Shown here in pieces: positions 14,884 through 23,079 of a stretch of DNA of 37,466 nt. The notes under the pieces are model-generated. The model did not search any database. It was not told where the DNA came from and was given only the letters and a program-made list of their open reading frames with translations. The position numbers and the translations under genes are program-made. This stretch comes from Gammaproteobacteria bacterium. GTDB lineage: Bacteria > Pseudomonadota > Gammaproteobacteria > DRLM01. The stretch is from the NCBI GenBank assembly GCA_011375345.1, contig DRLM01000146.1:1-37466 (forward strand), given 5' to 3'. Numbering within the stretch: position 1 is the stretch's first letter; every line of letters begins with the position of its first letter.

Positions 14884-15504
14884 ATGAACGAAACGCAAGT
14901 GATACGTTGGGCGCTGAAACCCGTATTGTTTGTGCTGTGTCTGGTGCCGGTCCTGCTGTTGGCCTGGCGCGCCTGGCAGGGCAGCTTGGGTGCCAATCCG
15001 GTCGAGACCCTGAGTCACGAGACCGGCGCCTGGGCTTTGCGCATGTTGCTGCTGACACTGACCGTGACCCCCCTGCGCCGTTTGACCGGCTGGCAGCCGC
15101 TCATCCGGTTTCGTCGTATGTTGGGTTTGTCCGCTTTTTTTTATGCCTGTCTGCATATCACCGTTTATCTGGTCTTCGATCAGTTTTTCGACTGGGATGA
15201 AATCGTCAAAGATATCGTCAAGCGGCCTTACGTCACCGTGGGTTTCACTGCCTTTGTGCTGCTACTGCCTTTGGCCGTCACCTCCACCAAAGGCATGATG
15301 CGGCGTCTGGGCCGCCGCTGGGCCCGCCTGCATCAACTGGTGTATGTGGCGGCCACCGCGGGTGTGCTGCACTTTCTGTGGCTGGTGAAGGCTGACGTGC
15401 GCGATCCTTTGTATTACGCGGTGGCTTTGCTGGTGTTGTTGCTGTTCCGCGTCTGGTGGGCGCGGCGGGGGGCGGCGGCAGTGGCGGCGCCGGGCCGGGC
15501 CTAG
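14884..15504 (+). CDS. msrQ: Heme-binding membrane subunit MsrQ
   Basis: This 206-residue inner-membrane b-type cytochrome passes quinone or flavin-derived electrons to MsrP. About six membrane helices are visible. It has the ferric-reductase-like core: an SHETGAWALRMLLLTLTVTPLR helix, RRMLGLSAFFYACLHITVYL with a heme-ligand histidine, and a late RLHQLVYVAATAGVLHFLW containing two further histidines. The start at 14884 opens the conserved N-terminus before the first helix; no strong Shine-Dalgarno is seen. Its TAG (15502-15504) overlaps by four nt the stop codon of the convergent GspE-like gene. Confidence 0.94.
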   Translation: MNETQVIRWALKPVLFVLCLVPVLLLAWRAWQGSLGANPVETLSHETGAWALRMLLLTLTVTPLRRLTGWQPLIRFRRMLGLSAFFYACLHITVYLVFDQFFDWDEIVKDIVKRPYVTVGFTAFVLLLPLAVTSTKGMMRRLGRRWARLHQLVYVAATAGVLHFLWLVKADVRDPLYYAVALLVLLLFRVWWARRGAAAVAAPGRA

Positions 15505-17876
15505 TCCGTGCAGGCCGCGCGCACTTGTGCGAGGTCGGTTTGGCCCTGCAGCAGTTTTTCTATGCCGTCCTGCTTCAAGGTTTTCATTCCTCCCTGCCGC
15601 GCGAGGGTGATCAGGGCTTGGTTTGTGGCACCGTCCAACAAGGCCTGACGCAACGGCGCCGTCATTTCCAACAGTTCATGCAGGGGCAGTCGTCCCGAAT
15701 AGCCGCTATGATGACAACGCGGACAGGCGCGGCGCCGATAGAGGGTGAAAGCCCCGTTCATGTCGGCGTAGTGCTCGGTCCAGTGGGCGACGATGCTTTC
15801 GTGCACCGTGGGATTGTGCGCACCGTCTCTGGGTGCGGATTCCGCGTGGTACTCCGCCGCCAGCGCGATCAGTTCGTCCTTGGCCGGGTGGTAGCGTTCC
15901 TTGCAGTGGGTGCACAGGCGGCGCGCCAGCCGCTGCCCCAAAACACCCCGCAAACCCTCGGCCAGGGCATAGGCCGGCGCACCCAGATGCAACAAGGTGG
16001 TCAGGGCGTCCGCCGCCCGGGGGGACAGGGTGCTGGCCAGGGCCAGTCTGCCGCCCAGGACGAATTCCATCATGGCCTGGGTGGTGGCCGCATCGGTGAC
16101 GGTGGGCAGGAAAGCGGCGTCGGCATCAGCGCTGGCCAGTTGTTTGAGCTGGGTGGTCGCGTTGAACGCATGAGCGTCGGCGCGCAGTTGGCGGGTGTTG
16201 GGGGGCGGGGCAAAGGGGTGTTCCCCCACCATCCAGGCCTTGCGGGTGTCACCATTGATGTGTTCGAACAGCGCGCGCAAAGTGGTGGACTTGCCCTGGC
16301 CCCTGGGACCCGTGACCAGGATCAATCCGCTGCGGTTGTCGCTGAGCTTGATCAGGCGCTGCAGGTGTTCGTCGCTCAGATCCAAATGCTCGAAGCCGTC
16401 CTGTGACGCGTCGGGCAGGCAATGGAGCACATAGTCTTCCCTGCCGTCGACGCAGGGCAGATAGTGGAGCGGCAACGTGCGGGTCTGTCCGCCTAAATCC
16501 AGCGTGAGTTCTCCCCGCTGCGGCACATGCGCAAGGGCTTGGGGAAAACGGCTTTGGGTTTTGAGTTGGGCGAGGAAGGCGGTCTGCTGGCTGGCGGTGA
16601 TGTTGCCCCGGTGTTCCAGCCGCTCGGCGATGCGAAAGGAGACATTGATGCCGCGGTTATGTCCCTGGCATTCGAAGTGAATATAGCTCGCGCCCTCGCC
16701 CGCCGCCCGGCTGATGAAGTCCATGATTTCGGGCGCCCTGGTCTTGCTGCGCAGTTTGGGGCCGGGCGCCCGGGTCTGGCGGGCAGCCTGTGCTTTTTGC
16801 TTGGGTTCCAGATGATCGCGGTTGTACTGGTCGATGGCCCAGAGTATGTCCTCGCGGCCCGCCATGACGGGCTCGATGATTTGTCCCGTTTGCTTGTGCA
16901 GGGCATCGATCACTTCACCCTTAGTGGGGTCATCCATGGCCACGACGAGTTTGGAACCGAAGCGGTGCACGGGCAAAACGGTGTGGCAGCGGGCGTAGCT
17001 GGAGCCGATGGACTTGGCGGCCACATAGTCCACCGGAAATTCGCGCAGATTGACATAGGGCACGCCGTATTTGGAGGCCAGGCTTTTTTGAATGTCCTCT
17101 GCCGTCACCAGACCCCGGGCCACCAGCAGCTCGCCCAGGGGTTTGCGCCGCTGTTGTTTTTGTTGCGCCAGGGCATTGTCGAGTTCAGCTCGCTCGATCA
17201 TGCGCTCTTCCACCAGTATTTCGCCGAGCTGCATGTGCGGCATGCGCTCCTGGCGTTTGACCGCCCGCTCCAGGGCGGCGGGGCTGATAATGGCGTTGCG
17301 CGTCAATACATCGCCCAGGGACTCGGACCTTTTTTCCTGTTGTTCCAGCAGGACCATGGCCACGTCCCTCTCGCTGAGGATACGGTCTTTGACCAGTTGC
17401 TGGCCCAGTTGCTTGCCGATGCGGTGGCGGGCGATGGCCCCGTTGGGGACGAACAAGTGGGTATAGCGCTTGCCTTCCAGCACGGGGAACAAATGAATGC
17501 CGTGGCGGCCGTTGCGGAAGCCGAAGGTGCTGCCGTCTATGGTGCTGTGATCGTTGAATTCAATTTCGAATTCCAGCGGCTCGGTGGTCACTTTGACCCC
17601 TTTTGAAGGCGATAGCAGGCTGTCTTCGTCGGGCAGCCACAGCCGCGGCTCGGGCGCGTGCATCAGCCGGATCTCATGCATACCCAGCGTTTTTGTGCTG
17701 TCTTGGGTTTTGCCGCTGACCTCGATCTGACCTTCGTCCGCATCGAAGCTTTGCAAGGCGCCGATGAGTTTGCGCCCGTCGCTGAGTTCCAGGACGACGC
17801 GTTCATCTTTGGTGATCACCGTCTCGGGGCGGACGGCGCACAGCGGGGGAACAGGCAGATCGATTTCGCTATTCAT
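15501..17876 (-). CDS. GspE/PilB-like protein with degenerate ATPase motifs
   Basis: This 791-residue protein is related to type II secretion/type IV pilus ATPases. The N-terminal 150 residues are an unrecognised beta-rich domain. Residues about 152-275 hold four tandem ~30-residue helical repeats of the LGxxLvxxxxIxxxxLxxAlxxQ kind, as in MshE/GspE N-domains that can bind c-di-GMP. The C-terminal ATPase-like domain keeps Walker A as GPRGQGKS (523-530) and the four-cysteine zinc site (C655, C658, C718, C721). The Walker B segment, normally ending VGEIRD, reads AAFLPTVTD (587-595) and lacks the catalytic glutamate. The His box, normally STLHTN, reads STLSPR (615-620). ATP hydrolysis is therefore doubtful. 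No pilus or secretion genes are adjacent. Confidence 0.82.
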   Translation of the reverse strand: MNSEIDLPVPPLCAVRPETVITKDERVVLELSDGRKLIGALQSFDADEGQIEVSGKTQDSTKTLGMHEIRLMHAPEPRLWLPDEDSLLSPSKGVKVTTEPLEFEIEFNDHSTIDGSTFGFRNGRHGIHLFPVLEGKRYTHLFVPNGAIARHRIGKQLGQQLVKDRILSERDVAMVLLEQQEKRSESLGDVLTRNAIISPAALERAVKRQERMPHMQLGEILVEERMIERAELDNALAQQKQQRRKPLGELLVARGLVTAEDIQKSLASKYGVPYVNLREFPVDYVAAKSIGSSYARCHTVLPVHRFGSKLVVAMDDPTKGEVIDALHKQTGQIIEPVMAGREDILWAIDQYNRDHLEPKQKAQAARQTRAPGPKLRSKTRAPEIMDFISRAAGEGASYIHFECQGHNRGINVSFRIAERLEHRGNITASQQTAFLAQLKTQSRFPQALAHVPQRGELTLDLGGQTRTLPLHYLPCVDGREDYVLHCLPDASQDGFEHLDLSDEHLQRLIKLSDNRSGLILVTGPRGQGKSTTLRALFEHINGDTRKAWMVGEHPFAPPPNTRQLRADAHAFNATTQLKQLASADADAAFLPTVTDAATTQAMMEFVLGGRLALASTLSPRAADALTTLLHLGAPAYALAEGLRGVLGQRLARRLCTHCKERYHPAKDELIALAAEYHAESAPRDGAHNPTVHESIVAHWTEHYADMNGAFTLYRRRACPRCHHSGYSGRLPLHELLEMTAPLRQALLDGATNQALITLARQGGMKTLKQDGIEKLLQGQTDLAQVRAACTD

Positions 17877-18023: not shown

Positions 18024-19517
18024 CTATTGGACTTTTTCGCACTGGTGGGTGATTTCGACGCCGCTGTCGCCATAGACAGATTCCAGCTTCACCGTGAAGC
18101 CCCAAAGCCGCGCCAAGTGTTTCATGACTTCGTCGCTGTCGTCCGCAAGCGGCTGCCGGTTGTGCTGTACGTGGCGTACGGTGAGGGCGCGGTCGCCGCG
18201 CAAATTTACGTTGTAAACCTGCAGGTTGGGCTCCCGCACGCTGAGATTGTACTGCTGCGCCAGTACACTGCGCACATGGCGGTAGCCCGCCTCGTCGTGG
18301 ATCGCGGAGATTTCCAGTTCGCTGTCGCAGTCGTCGTCCAGCACGCTGAAAAGCTTGAAGTCCCGGATGAGTCTGGGGGAGAGATACTGGGAAATGAAGC
18401 TTTCATCCTTGAAGTTGCGCATGGCAAAATCCAGGGTTTCAAGCCAGTTGCTGCCGGCAATGTCGGGGAACCAGCGGCGGTCTTCTTCGGTAGGGTGCTC
18501 GCAAATGCGACGGATGTCACAAAACATGGCGAAGCCGAGGGCGTAAGGGTTGATGCCTGAATAGAAGGGACTGTTGTAGGGGGGTTGGTAGATGACGTTG
18601 GTGTGTGTTTTGAGCAACTCAATCATGAAACCGTCGGCCACCAAGCCTTTGTCATAAAGCGAGTTCAAGATGGTGTAATGCCAGAATGTGGCCCAGCCCT
18701 CGTTCATGACCTGGGTTTGCCGCTGGGGATAGAAGTACTGCGCGATCTTGCGCACGATGCGCACCAGCTCGCGTTGCCAGGGTTCCAGCAGGGGTGCATT
18801 CTTTTCGATGAAATAGAGGATGTTTTCCTGGGGTTCGCTGGGGAAGCGGCCGTGGCTTTGTTCGATTTCCGCATCGACGGGTTTGGGGATGGTCCGCCAC
18901 AGGTCATTGATCTGGGATTGCAAATAGGCTTCCCGGTCTTTTTGGCGGGCGCGTTCTTCCTGGATGGACAGGCGGGGTGGACGCTTGTAGCGGTCGACAC
19001 CGTAATTCATCAGGGCGTGACAGGAGTCCAGGATCAGCTCGACTTCCTCCTCGCCGTGGCGGCGTTCACACTCCATCACGTAGTTTTTTGCGAACACCAG
19101 GTAGTCGATGATGGAGTCGGGGCAGGTCCAGGTACGGAACAGGTAATTGCCTTTGAAAAAGGAGTTGTGGCCGTAAGACGCGTGCGCCATGACCAGGGCC
19201 TGCATGGCCATGGAATTTTCCTCCATCAGATAGGCAATGCAGGGATTGGAGTTGATCACAATTTCATAGGCCAGGCCCATGTGGCCGCGCTTGTAGCGTT
19301 GCTCCACCCCCAGAAACTGTTTGCCGAAGGACCAGTGGTGATAGCCTACGGGCATGCCTACCGAGGAATAGGCGTCCATCATCTGCTCGGCGCTGATGAT
19401 TTCAATCTGGTTGGGATAAGTGTCCAGCCCGTATTCTTCGGCGCTGCGGCGGATCACCTCCTCGTAGCGCTGCAGCAGTTCATAGGACCACTCTGAGGTG
19501 TAGGGCAGTTGGCTCAT
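18024..19517 (-). CDS. SpoVR family protein (YcgB-like)
   Basis: This 497-residue protein is similar throughout to the SpoVR/YcgB family. The diagnostic block reads YPNQIEIISAEQMMDAYSSV, GMPVGYHHWSFGKQF, YEIVINSNPCIAYLMEENS, and a late INPYALGFAMFCDI. The C-terminal 100 residues form the typical SpoVR C-terminal domain. In Bacillus, SpoVR affects spore cortex formation. In proteobacteria the gene is usually linked to prkA and yeaH and is stress or stationary-phase associated; the biochemical function is unknown. Its ATG overlaps the yeaH stop by four nt (ATGA at 19514-19517), so it is translationally coupled. Confidence 0.95.
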   Translation of the reverse strand: MSQLPYTSEWSYELLQRYEEVIRRSAEEYGLDTYPNQIEIISAEQMMDAYSSVGMPVGYHHWSFGKQFLGVEQRYKRGHMGLAYEIVINSNPCIAYLMEENSMAMQALVMAHASYGHNSFFKGNYLFRTWTCPDSIIDYLVFAKNYVMECERRHGEEEVELILDSCHALMNYGVDRYKRPPRLSIQEERARQKDREAYLQSQINDLWRTIPKPVDAEIEQSHGRFPSEPQENILYFIEKNAPLLEPWQRELVRIVRKIAQYFYPQRQTQVMNEGWATFWHYTILNSLYDKGLVADGFMIELLKTHTNVIYQPPYNSPFYSGINPYALGFAMFCDIRRICEHPTEEDRRWFPDIAGSNWLETLDFAMRNFKDESFISQYLSPRLIRDFKLFSVLDDDCDSELEISAIHDEAGYRHVRSVLAQQYNLSVREPNLQVYNVNLRGDRALTVRHVQHNRQPLADDSDEVMKHLARLWGFTVKLESVYGDSGVEITHQCEKVQ

Positions 19518-20785
19518 GCCTGCAGGCCTTTCTTTTTGAACAGTTTGCGAAAGACCGGAAAGATGTCAGCAGCACCTGCGATGCGCTGCATGGCGAAATT
19601 GGGGCAACTTTGCTTGATGCGCAGGAACTCGCGCCACAGGCCGCGGGGTGTGTCGTCGGCGATTTCGATGTAAGCGTAGTATTGCACCTTGGGCATGATG
19701 CGGTTGATCAGCAGCTCGCGGCACAGGGGGGAGTCGTCACTCCAGTTGTCGCCGTCGGACGCCTGCGCGGCGTAGATGTTCCATTCGGTGGGCGGATAGC
19801 GCTCATCGATGATGTTCTGCATGAGCTTCAAGGCGCTGGAGACCACGGTGCCGCCGGTTTCCCTGGAATAAAAGAACTCGTTCTCGTCTACTTCCTTGGC
19901 GACGGTGTGGTGGCGAATAAACACCAAGTCTATGCTCTCGTAGGTGCCGGTCAAAAAGAAATACAGCAATGTAAAAAACCGCTTGGCCAGGTCTTTTTTG
20001 GCCTGATCCATGGAACCGGACACATCCATGAGACAAAACATGACGGCCTGGCTGGAGGGTTCTGTCTGGGTGATGCGGTTGCGGTAGCGCAGATCGAAAT
20101 TGTCGATGAAGGGCACTGCGCGCAGGCGGGCCTTGATGCTTTTGATCTGCTCCAGCAAGGCCTGCACTTGCGGATCGTCTTCGTTGTGAAACTGGCGCAG
20201 TTGTGCCAGTTCCTGCTCGGCTTCGCGCAGGCGGCTTTTGTGGGGGCTTTGCAAGGCGATGCGCCGGCTCAGTGCGCCTTTCAGCGACCGGACCACGTCG
20301 ATGTTGGCGGGGACGCCGTCGGTAGTGTAACCGGCGCGCACTTTTTTGTACTTGACCAGCTTGGCGAGCTGGGTTTTTACCAGGTCGGGCAGCTCAAGGT
20401 CGTCAAAGAACAGGTCCAGAAATTCTTCGCGGGAGATTTGAAAAGCGAAATCGTCCAGGCCTTCGCCTTGCTTGCTGGCCTTGCCACTGCCGGATCCGCC
20501 ACCCCCGCCCAGGGGGCGGGGGAGACGGTCTCCGGTGACGAAGTCAGTGTTGCCGGGGTGTACCGCCTCCCGGCGTCCGCCGGGGCCGTGATGAAAGGTG
20601 GGCTCGCTAATGTCTTTGGCGGGAATGTTGACCTTCTCGCCCCGGTCCAGATCAGTGATGCTGCGCCCGGAGACGGCGTCCGCCACGGCTTTTTTGATCT
20701 GGCTTTTGAAACGCCGGATAAACTTATGACGGTTTACCGCGCTTTTGTTTTTGCCGTTGGGCCGTCTGTCGATGAACTGCGACAC
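19514..20785 (-). CDS. yeaH: YeaH/YhbH family protein (DUF444, vWA-like domain)
   Basis: This 423-residue protein of the DUF444 family nearly always accompanies PrkA. It has a basic N-terminus, a glycine-rich linker (around residues 92-100, GGGGGSGSG), a helical middle, and a C-terminal von Willebrand A-type domain with MIDAS-like DVSGSM. The start is GTG at 20785, preceded by GGTGGTG; a nearby ATG at 20790 is out of frame. It may be an adaptor or substrate-presenting partner of the PrkA kinase, as inferred from linkage in E. coli yeaGH. It is the middle gene of a three-gene operon, 24 nt after prkA. Confidence 0.95.
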   Translation of the reverse strand: MSQFIDRRPNGKNKSAVNRHKFIRRFKSQIKKAVADAVSGRSITDLDRGEKVNIPAKDISEPTFHHGPGGRREAVHPGNTDFVTGDRLPRPLGGGGGSGSGKASKQGEGLDDFAFQISREEFLDLFFDDLELPDLVKTQLAKLVKYKKVRAGYTTDGVPANIDVVRSLKGALSRRIALQSPHKSRLREAEQELAQLRQFHNEDDPQVQALLEQIKSIKARLRAVPFIDNFDLRYRNRITQTEPSSQAVMFCLMDVSGSMDQAKKDLAKRFFTLLYFFLTGTYESIDLVFIRHHTVAKEVDENEFFYSRETGGTVVSSALKLMQNIIDERYPPTEWNIYAAQASDGDNWSDDSPLCRELLINRIMPKVQYYAYIEIADDTPRGLWREFLRIKQSCPNFAMQRIAGAADIFPVFRKLFKKKGLQA

Positions 20786-20809: not shown

Positions 20810-22732
20810 TCACGATGTTTTGCGGGTGCGCAAATGCCACTCGCACAGCAGGCGCACCTGCTTGGGGGTATAGCCTTTTTGCACCATGCGGTTGACGAAT
20901 TCCTCGTGCTTTTTCTTGTCCTCGCTGGAGGACTTGGCGCTGAAGGAAATCACCGGCAGAAGATCTTCGGTGGTGGAGAACATTTTTTTCTCGATGACTT
21001 CGCGCAGTTTTTCGTAACTGGTCCAGGCGGGGTTTTTCCCGGCATTGTTGGCCCGGGCGCGGAGCACGAAGTTGACGATCTCGTTGCGGAAGTCTTTCGG
21101 GTTGCTGATGCCCGCCGGCTTCTCTATTTTTTCCAGCTCTTCGTTGAGCGCCGCGCGGTCCAGGTATTCGCCAGTGTCCGGGTCGCGGTATTCCTGGTCC
21201 TGAATCCAGTAGTCAGCGTAGGTCACGTAACGGTCGAAAATGTTCTGACCGAATTCCGAATAGGACTCCAGATACGCCGTCTGGATTTCCTTGCCGATGA
21301 ATTCCGCGTAGCGCGGTGCCAGGTAGCCTTTCAGGAAAGTGAGATATTTTTCCTTCACCTCCGGTGGAAATTGTTCCTGTTCAATCTGCTGCTCCAGAAT
21401 GTAGAGCAGGTGCACCGGGTTGGCAGCGATCTCGGAATGGTCGTAGTTGAATATCTTCGACAGTATTTTGAAGGCAAAGCGGGTGGACAGGCCGCTCATG
21501 CCTTCGTCCGGGCCGGCGTAGTCGCGGTATTCCTGATAGGACTTCGCTTTGGGGTCGATGTCTTTCAGGTTCTCACCGTCGTAGACCCGCATTTTTGAAT
21601 AAATACTGGAGTTTTCCGGTTCTTTGAGGCGTGACAAAACTGCGAACTGGGACATCATTTCCAAAGTGCCCGGTGCGCAGGGCGCTTGCGACAAAGAGCT
21701 GTTGGCGAGCAGCTTTTTGTAAATGCTCACTTCATCGCTCATGCGCAGGCAGTAAGGCACTTTGACGATGAAGATGCGGTCCAAAAAAGCTTCGTTGTTT
21801 TTGTTGTTGCGGAAGGACTGCCACTCCGATTCGTTGGAGTGCGCCAGCACGATGCCATCGAAAGGAATGGCAGGGAAGCCTTCGGTGCCCTTGTAATTAC
21901 CCTCTTGGGTGGCGGTGAGCAGGGGATGCAGCACCTTCAGCGGGGCTTTGAACATTTCCACGAATTCCAGCAGGCCCTGGTTGGCCAGGCACAGGCCGCC
22001 GGAATAGCTGTAGGCGTCCGGGTCGTCCTGGGAATAGTGTTCCAGCTTGCGGATGTCCACCTTGCCCACCAGGCTGGATATGTCCTGGTTGTTTTCATCG
22101 CCGGGTTCGGTTTTGGCGATGCCGGTCTGGCGAAGCTGGGAGGGCATGAGCCGGACGACTTTGAACCGGCTGATGTCACCGTTGTATTCATGCAGACGTT
22201 TTACCGCCCAGGGCGACATGATTTTGCCCAGGTAACGCTGGGGAATGCCGTAGTCTTCTTCCAGGATGCGGCCGTCTTCGGCGCGGGAGAACAGGCCCAA
22301 AGGGGATTCGTTCACCGGCGAGCCTTTGATGGCGTAGAAGGGCACGCCCTCCATCAGGGATTTGAGCTTCTCCGCCAGGGACGATTTGCCGCCGCCGGGT
22401 GGCCCCAACAGGTAGAGGATTTGTTTTTTCTCCTCCAGGCCCTGGGCGGCATGGCGGAAGAAGGAGACGATCTGCTCGATGGTCTCTTCCATGCCGTAAA
22501 AATCGCGAAAGGCCGGATAGATTTTGATGACCTTGTTGGCGAAGATGCGGCTTAAGCGAGGGTCTTTGCTGGTGTCCACCAGTTCGGGTTCGCCGATGGC
22601 GGTCAGCATGCGTTCGGCGGCTGTGGCGTAGGCGCTGGGGTCGTTTTTGCAGATCTCCAGATAGTCATGGAGACTCAGTTCTTCTTCCCGGGATGATTCG
22701 TAGCGCGACCGGTAGCTGTCAAAAATACTCAT
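20810..22732 (-). CDS. prkA: PrkA family serine protein kinase / AAA+ protein
   Basis: PrkA (YeaG) of 640 residues, close to E. coli (644). The N-terminal AAA+-like module has Walker A LLGPPGGGKSS (108-118); family blocks include EEELSLHDYLEICK and YPAFRDFYGMEETIEQIV. The C-terminal PrkA domain follows, ending with a helical stretch near GYTPKQVRLLCEWHL. PrkA is described as a serine kinase, and in some species as an AAA+ protease-like regulator, acting in starvation or sporulation. The ATG at 22732 is chosen: it matches the E. coli beginning (M-x-IFD-x-Y) and GAGG lies eight nt upstream. The ATG at 22738 is too close to that site. A sigma-54 promoter lies about 50 nt upstream. Confidence 0.96.
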   Translation of the reverse strand: MSIFDSYRSRYESSREEELSLHDYLEICKNDPSAYATAAERMLTAIGEPELVDTSKDPRLSRIFANKVIKIYPAFRDFYGMEETIEQIVSFFRHAAQGLEEKKQILYLLGPPGGGKSSLAEKLKSLMEGVPFYAIKGSPVNESPLGLFSRAEDGRILEEDYGIPQRYLGKIMSPWAVKRLHEYNGDISRFKVVRLMPSQLRQTGIAKTEPGDENNQDISSLVGKVDIRKLEHYSQDDPDAYSYSGGLCLANQGLLEFVEMFKAPLKVLHPLLTATQEGNYKGTEGFPAIPFDGIVLAHSNESEWQSFRNNKNNEAFLDRIFIVKVPYCLRMSDEVSIYKKLLANSSLSQAPCAPGTLEMMSQFAVLSRLKEPENSSIYSKMRVYDGENLKDIDPKAKSYQEYRDYAGPDEGMSGLSTRFAFKILSKIFNYDHSEIAANPVHLLYILEQQIEQEQFPPEVKEKYLTFLKGYLAPRYAEFIGKEIQTAYLESYSEFGQNIFDRYVTYADYWIQDQEYRDPDTGEYLDRAALNEELEKIEKPAGISNPKDFRNEIVNFVLRARANNAGKNPAWTSYEKLREVIEKKMFSTTEDLLPVISFSAKSSSEDKKKHEEFVNRMVQKGYTPKQVRLLCEWHLRTRKTS

Positions 22733-22780
22733 TGTCATTACCTCGCTGCCGTATGAAATGGGACCTGGTCGTCCAGGGAA

Positions 22781-22796
22781 TGCAAATACAGGGCCA
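22781..22796 (-). promoter_or_regulatory. Sigma-54 promoter of prkA-yeaH-spoVR
   Basis: The minus strand reads TGGCCCTGTATTTGCA. Against the consensus TGGCACGN4TTGCW it mismatches only at positions 5 and 7, and the GG/GC spacing is exact. The predicted start of transcription is near 22771, giving a leader of about 38 nt before the prkA ATG. E. coli yeaGH is known to be sigma-54/NtrC responsive under nitrogen starvation, which supports the call. No clear NtrC site was seen in the remaining 190 nt. Confidence 0.72.
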
Positions 22797-23050
22797 GTGC
22801 CGGCGGCTGCCGGATCAGGTGGAATCTGCGGTCCCGCGCACTCCCCGGTCCGCGCCTTGTTCAAGGCGACAATTATATTATCGTACCCGGTGTCTGACTT
22901 CCGAAGGTGGGAGCGTTGGGTGCCGTGCAGACAGCCTCCCACCGCCGTAATCCTTATGACCCTGTGCCGTTGATCTAAGTTCAGCCCCGCCGGGCGCTGC
23001 CCGCTCTGCTGCTGCGGTGGTAAACAAATGTCATAACGCCGGTTTTGGGA

Positions 23051-23079
23051 TTGCCTTGGACCCACCCAGACGCTACTGT
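23051..23079 (+). promoter_or_regulatory. Candidate sigma-70 promoter of the DUF481 gene
   Basis: TTGCCT (23051-23056), a 17-nt spacer and TACTGT (23074-23079) put the transcript start near 23086, 34 nt before the ATG. The match is moderate. Confidence 0.4.

Follow-up and report, generated by a model that had tools for sequence, protein, structure and literature searches.

The presence of c-di-GMP sensors in pilus and secretion motors is already known, and engineered mutants have shown that one PilB signals without ATP hydrolysis. Among the closest described systems are the MshE-type ATPases, represented by Vibrio MshE and Thermus PilF, which combine tandem 24-residue motifs and an MshEN C-subdomain with an N2D/CTD core and a four-cysteine site. 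In MshEN, a Leu-Gly pair contacts guanine (PMC5013675), and R/K/L has been proposed as the range for the first position of the motif (PMC11731258). For the assembly motors, the functions of the catalytic residues are taken from Geobacter metallireducens PilB, and mutation of the motifs disrupts ATPase activity in PilB-family ATPases (PMC5424180). In Myxococcus, a PilB Walker A mutant with no ATPase activity still signals exopolysaccharide production, and signalling there came from the nucleotide-free state rather than from the ATP-bound one (PMC5544727). A search of the available literature for a GspE pseudo-ATPase gave no match, and other searches gave related, non-matching papers.

The gene studied here lies in a window of 37,466 nucleotides, the whole stretch of DNA that was analyzed, and encodes a protein of 791 aa (Table 1). 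The reading frame has the extent first reported for it, with an ATG start and no internal stops, and the start codon is conserved in relatives. Residues 217-785 fall in the PilB/GspE family by Pfam and NCBIfam, far below the equivalog cut-offs: the protein scored 228.8 bits for PilB (cut-off 675.65) and 186.4 bits for GspE (cut-off 630.25). The whole-chain AlphaFold2 model had a mean pLDDT of 80.5, and the top Foldseek matches of its C-terminal half were GspE, PilF and PilB, with E-values down to 1e-31. The earlier note's assignment to a GspE/PilB relative was therefore confirmed for the full-length protein by Pfam, NCBIfam and Foldseek. Compared with the MshE-type ATPases, the protein shares the C-subdomain, the N2D/CTD core and the four-cysteine site and has tandem motifs of that type with deviating first positions. 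Missing from it are the catalytic Glu, HIS box, arginine fingers and ASP box; it carries an extra tandem-barrel N-terminus and has no pilus context. With the PilB/GspE motors it has the fold of the C-terminal half, Walker A and the zinc cysteines in common, but not the catalytic set. Our preferred reading, to which we give a probability of roughly 0.55, is that the gene encodes a lineage-specific pseudo-motor working as a ligand-binding regulator.

Table 1. Features of the probable pseudo-motor gene and of the genes upstream of it (window positions)
Feature	Coordinates	Strand	Basis
prkA/yeaG serine kinase	20810-23065	-	NF011999, residues 112-750
yeaH (DUF444), 4-nt overlap with spoVR	19514-20785	-	PF04285, E 1.9e-183
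spoVR (YcgB-type), directly upstream, same strand	18024-19517	-	PF04293, E 5.5e-179; NF008737
Degenerate GspE/PilB-type gene, 791 aa	15501-17876	-	ORF; Pfam; full-length orthologues L010, L011, L012
First five-stranded barrel, residues 25-79, Sm/SH3-like	17640-17804	-	AlphaFold2; LSM E 0.0013; Foldseek Hfq/LSm
Second five-stranded barrel, residues 101-153	17418-17576	-	AlphaFold2
Four MshEN-type helical repeats, starts 156, 186, 216, 246	17070-17411	-	Repeat alignment; NF053729
MshEN C-subdomain, residues 270-355	16812-17069	-	PF05157, E 2.6e-18
T2SSE ATPase region, residues 383-785	15522-16730	-	PF00437, E 3.7e-48; Foldseek GspE, PilF, PilB
Two arginine-finger sites, lost, P469 and H485	16422-16472	-	Motif table
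Walker A GPRGQGKS, kept, residues 523-530 (G523..K529-S530)	16287-16310	-	Motif table
ASP box, changed, GEHPF, residues 551-555; intact EDPVE/EDPIE	16212-16226	-	Motif table
Walker B/catalytic Glu region, lost, DADAAFLPTVTD, residues 584-595; intact DPDVIMVGEMRD	16092-16127	-	Motif table
HIS box, lost, residues 608-619	16020-16055	-	Motif table
First CxxC, zinc site, C655/C658, kept	15903-15914	-	Motif table
Second CxxC, zinc site, C718/C721, kept	15714-15725	-	Motif table

The motifs were compared column by column with 23 intact relatives in an alignment of 27 proteins, using the numbering of G. metallireducens PilB (PMC5424180). This comparison bore out that Walker A and the four-cysteine site are kept. 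It also agreed with the two losses described previously: the catalytic glutamate E395 corresponds to T592, inside the stretch 587-595 reported as a lost Walker B Glu region, and the HIS-box residues H413 and H420 correspond to R610 and L617, the box having been described as lost (STLSPR, 615-620). The losses go beyond that list, as both arginine fingers are gone (R271 and R286 being P469 and H485) and the ASP box is altered, with G551 in the place of E357. A glutamate, E552, adjoins the ASP-box position, so metal might still be bound. The earlier proposal that the protein probably cannot hydrolyse ATP is well supported by these further missing catalytic elements, most of them common to three orthologues, and from the alignment we consider it very probable that no ATP is hydrolysed.

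Three further genomes from the same taxonomic family carry full-length orthologues (L010, L011 and L012), with six same-order genomes in the comparison. Together with the window gene they form one clade in the tree (support 100/100). The HIS box, the second arginine finger and most of the ASP box are absent in all four members, and the P-loop and the four cysteines are present in all four. The catalytic Glu is lost in three; L010 alone retains it, without the HIS box and arginine fingers, and for this reason the clade is not uniformly dead at that site. L011 and L012 retain R271, one of the arginine fingers, and have Asp in the ASP-box position (D551-equivalent). The 23 intact relatives have 72 invariant columns in residues 380-791; 18 of these are lost and 20 are kept in all four proteins, the lost ones including the ASP box, R286, T411, H413 and H420. 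The kept columns comprise 8/8 P-loop/Cys positions versus 12/64 others (Fisher p 1e-5, indicative only, as the four rows are related). The homologue survey suggested in the earlier note thus found the motif losses conserved in one clade, with most of them common to three orthologues. A sequencing or assembly error in the motif region was ruled out, as the clade losses are common to three separate genomes.

Full-length or near-full-length intact relatives occur in 17 further genomes of the class (L013, L015-L030). Restored catalytic residues, named previously as a possible refutation, were not a feature of the close homologues; distant same-locus orthologues still have every motif, so it is one clade that is dead and not the entire family. 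In the tree, this clade may lie inside or beside the intact orthologues (node support 87/68, long branches). The intact N-barrel GspE-like ATPases (such as L015, L016 and L017) resemble the window protein in architecture from residue 1 to 790 and in chromosomal neighbourhood, but differ in having all catalytic motifs, in not lying beside prkA-yeaH-spoVR and in their reverse pattern of conservation. When the N-domain was looked for in other architectures, the proteins found had an intact Walker A, ASP box and catalytic Glu wherever these could be read; the simple HIS-box pattern matched none of these proteins and was uninformative.

Within the window, the gene has no identified pilus or secretion genes as neighbours, in line with the isolation from such operons described before. 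The earlier note did not mention the adjacent prkA-yeaH-spoVR genes, which lie directly upstream on the same strand in the four degenerate genomes, with spoVR adjoining in 4/4. SpoVR is also encoded in eight of the intact-only genomes, at another location in each. A promoter and terminator scan of the 147-nt gap to spoVR detected no promoter and no terminator-like site, so co-transcription of the pseudo-motor gene with spoVR is possible. The E. coli yeaGH genes form a stress operon that the cell requires to adapt to nitrogen starvation (PMC4664914). The linkage goes back to a single ancestral event, so the adjacency may be accidental. The prkA frame is about 110 codons longer than its family, and its true start is probably near 22732, because the match to the family starts only at residue 112 of the frame. 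In the genome G004 (L033:10188-11691), spoVR is split into two overlapping frames, probably by an assembly frameshift.

The intact orthologues in four genomes (G245, G132, G340 and G041) share a neighbourhood with prfC and variously with polysaccharide deacetylase, msrPQ and purL, where prfC and purL were named from translated sequence and not by family search. In two genomes (L035:7810-11399 and L036:8546-12114), the intact orthologue and a polysaccharide deacetylase may form an operon, as they share a strand and are ~50 and ~20 nt apart. In G003, a genome of the same family that is 83% complete, the GspE-like gene is absent at the locus (L075, G003:C277), so the gene is dispensable there. 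At that locus, spoVR is followed directly by the polysaccharide deacetylase, with neither the GspE-like gene nor msrPQ in between. Across the genomes this makes an ordered series from motor to pseudo-motor to absence.

A true PilB and a true GspE are encoded elsewhere in the window genome (L006 and L007, each scoring above its cut-off), so the 791-aa protein is not needed as either. Also present in that genome is a paralogue of 822 aa (L003, G000:C109) whose motifs are intact and whose N-terminus is of another type, by eye perhaps GAF-like. A plasmid search for a copy of the gene gave no match, and a scan of genome contigs with the protein matched a G002 contig only. The main alternatives to a regulator are a non-catalytic subunit and a drift to loss. 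As in other ring ATPases, a non-catalytic subunit could co-assemble with an active paralogue and tune that motor; the retained fold and P-loop would suit this, as would the active paralogues in the genome and an intact second copy (L014) beside the degenerate orthologue in G002. We nevertheless find it unlikely, as the inter-subunit residues (R286, T411 and the HIS box) are lost clade-wide, linkage to pilus or secretion genes is absent, and no intact N-domain orthologue was found in the window genome, G001 or G004. L014 itself lies on a 6.6-kb contig (L034, G002:C147) with its N-terminus cut, and it clusters with a protein from a different family, so that contamination of the bin is possible.

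Conservation along the protein differed strongly between the two groups. In the degenerate clade, identity over the first 148 residues is 61-79%, versus a mean of about 27% among intact orthologues. The ATPase core of the clade is mostly 20-44% identical (N2D 20-33%, CTD 32-44%), with 59% and 68%, respectively, for the close pair L011/L012, versus means of 67% (N2D) and 74% (CTD) for the intact orthologues. Likewise, 52% of the N-terminal columns are identical in all four degenerate proteins versus 20% in four intact relatives, and for core residues 491-672 the figures are 21% versus 69%. Constraint is thus inverted in the clade, as would be expected if the motor half had been released and the front half had become important. 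A decaying gene, whose motor became useless in the family and whose protein is drifting to loss with a functionless ATPase half, would also account for the diverged core and for the empty locus in G003. Such decay is improbable in view of frames that stay open over about 790-840 aa in four genomes, the conserved N-terminus, the P-loop and cysteines kept in all clade members, and a core dN/dS well below 1 for L011/L012 (0.18 versus 0.02-0.09 in intact pairs, rough values with dS near saturation). A weak or unconventional ATPase, still cycling via a Glu or Asp at or beside the ASP-box position, could draw on the intact Walker A, on E552 and, in L011/L012, the D551-equivalent, and on the Glu retained in L010, but it is very unlikely for a window protein without catalytic Glu, both arginine fingers and HIS box, when mutating the same motifs disrupts activity in the PilB family (PMC5424180).

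The extra N-terminal domain of ~150 residues proposed earlier is real and is predicted to consist of two small five-stranded barrels in tandem (residues 1-154, mean pLDDT 87.6). The second barrel carries DHSTIDG..GFRNGRHG, which is almost invariant in the degenerate clade. Single barrels matched Hfq/LSm proteins in Foldseek with a probability of 1.00 and an E-value of about 0.1, and the Pfam LSM match was weak and under the cut-off; DUF6982 and DUF4388 matches were seen in some family members. We call the predicted fold Sm/SH3-like, with no claim of RNA binding attached.

The four helical repeats that follow are likewise real and are spaced 30 residues apart. The NF053729 c-di-GMP motif scored 70.4 bits, above the curated cut-off of 38 and below the 80-104 bits of the intact orthologues checked. 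Each repeat fits 7-9 of the 11 positions of (R/K/L)LGxx(LVI)(LVI)xxG(LVI)(LVI)xxxxLxxxLxxQ, two full copies of which are expected of an MshEN c-di-GMP receptor. Leu-Gly is kept in all four repeats; position 1 is Q/S/Q/P instead of R/K/L, the internal Gly deviates in several repeats, and the last Q of repeat 4 is K, with repeat-4 changes also present in the intact relatives shown. In L010, repeats 1 and 4 are poor. The genome has 29 GGDEF matches, which suggests active c-di-GMP signalling. The c-di-GMP binding raised in the earlier note is therefore plausible: it has the above-cut-off score on its side, and the deviating positions and the lower score than in intact orthologues against it.

We envisage an ancestor that was an ordinary GspE/PilB-type ATPase with N-terminal barrels and MshEN repeats at the same chromosomal place. 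The catalytic and inter-subunit residues would have been lost in the ancestor of the bacterial family, and the protein kept in a non-hydrolysing form that drives no filament. The P-loop would still bind nucleotide, and the helical repeats would bind a small ligand, of which c-di-GMP is the likeliest; binding could then shift the posture of the barrel pair, which would serve as the conserved output surface and bind a partner. The linkage to prkA-yeaH-spoVR suggests that this output may feed the PrkA/YeaH/SpoVR stress response. The inverted conservation agrees with the earlier idea of a regulator derived from a secretion motor, and the regulatory role is one that we infer. More doubtful is the full scheme of a natural, vertically inherited GspE/PilB pseudo-ATPase that acts as a ligand-gated switch with an Sm-like barrel-pair output coupled to PrkA-YeaH-SpoVR, which we put forward only tentatively. 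Signalling independent of ATP hydrolysis would be shared with Myxococcus PilB, but the natural protein there is an active motor and its dead form was made by mutating Walker A (PMC5544727), which is kept here. As the signalling form in Myxococcus is nucleotide-free, retention of the P-loop need not point to a shared mechanism.

The degenerate clade, the intact positional orthologues and the one recorded loss form a ready comparison. If the regulator reading is true, a natural clade with a dead motor half and a selected sensor/adaptor half would be direct evidence that the signalling job of these ATPases can stand alone, and it would open a way into the PrkA-YeaH-SpoVR stress module, which is poorly understood.
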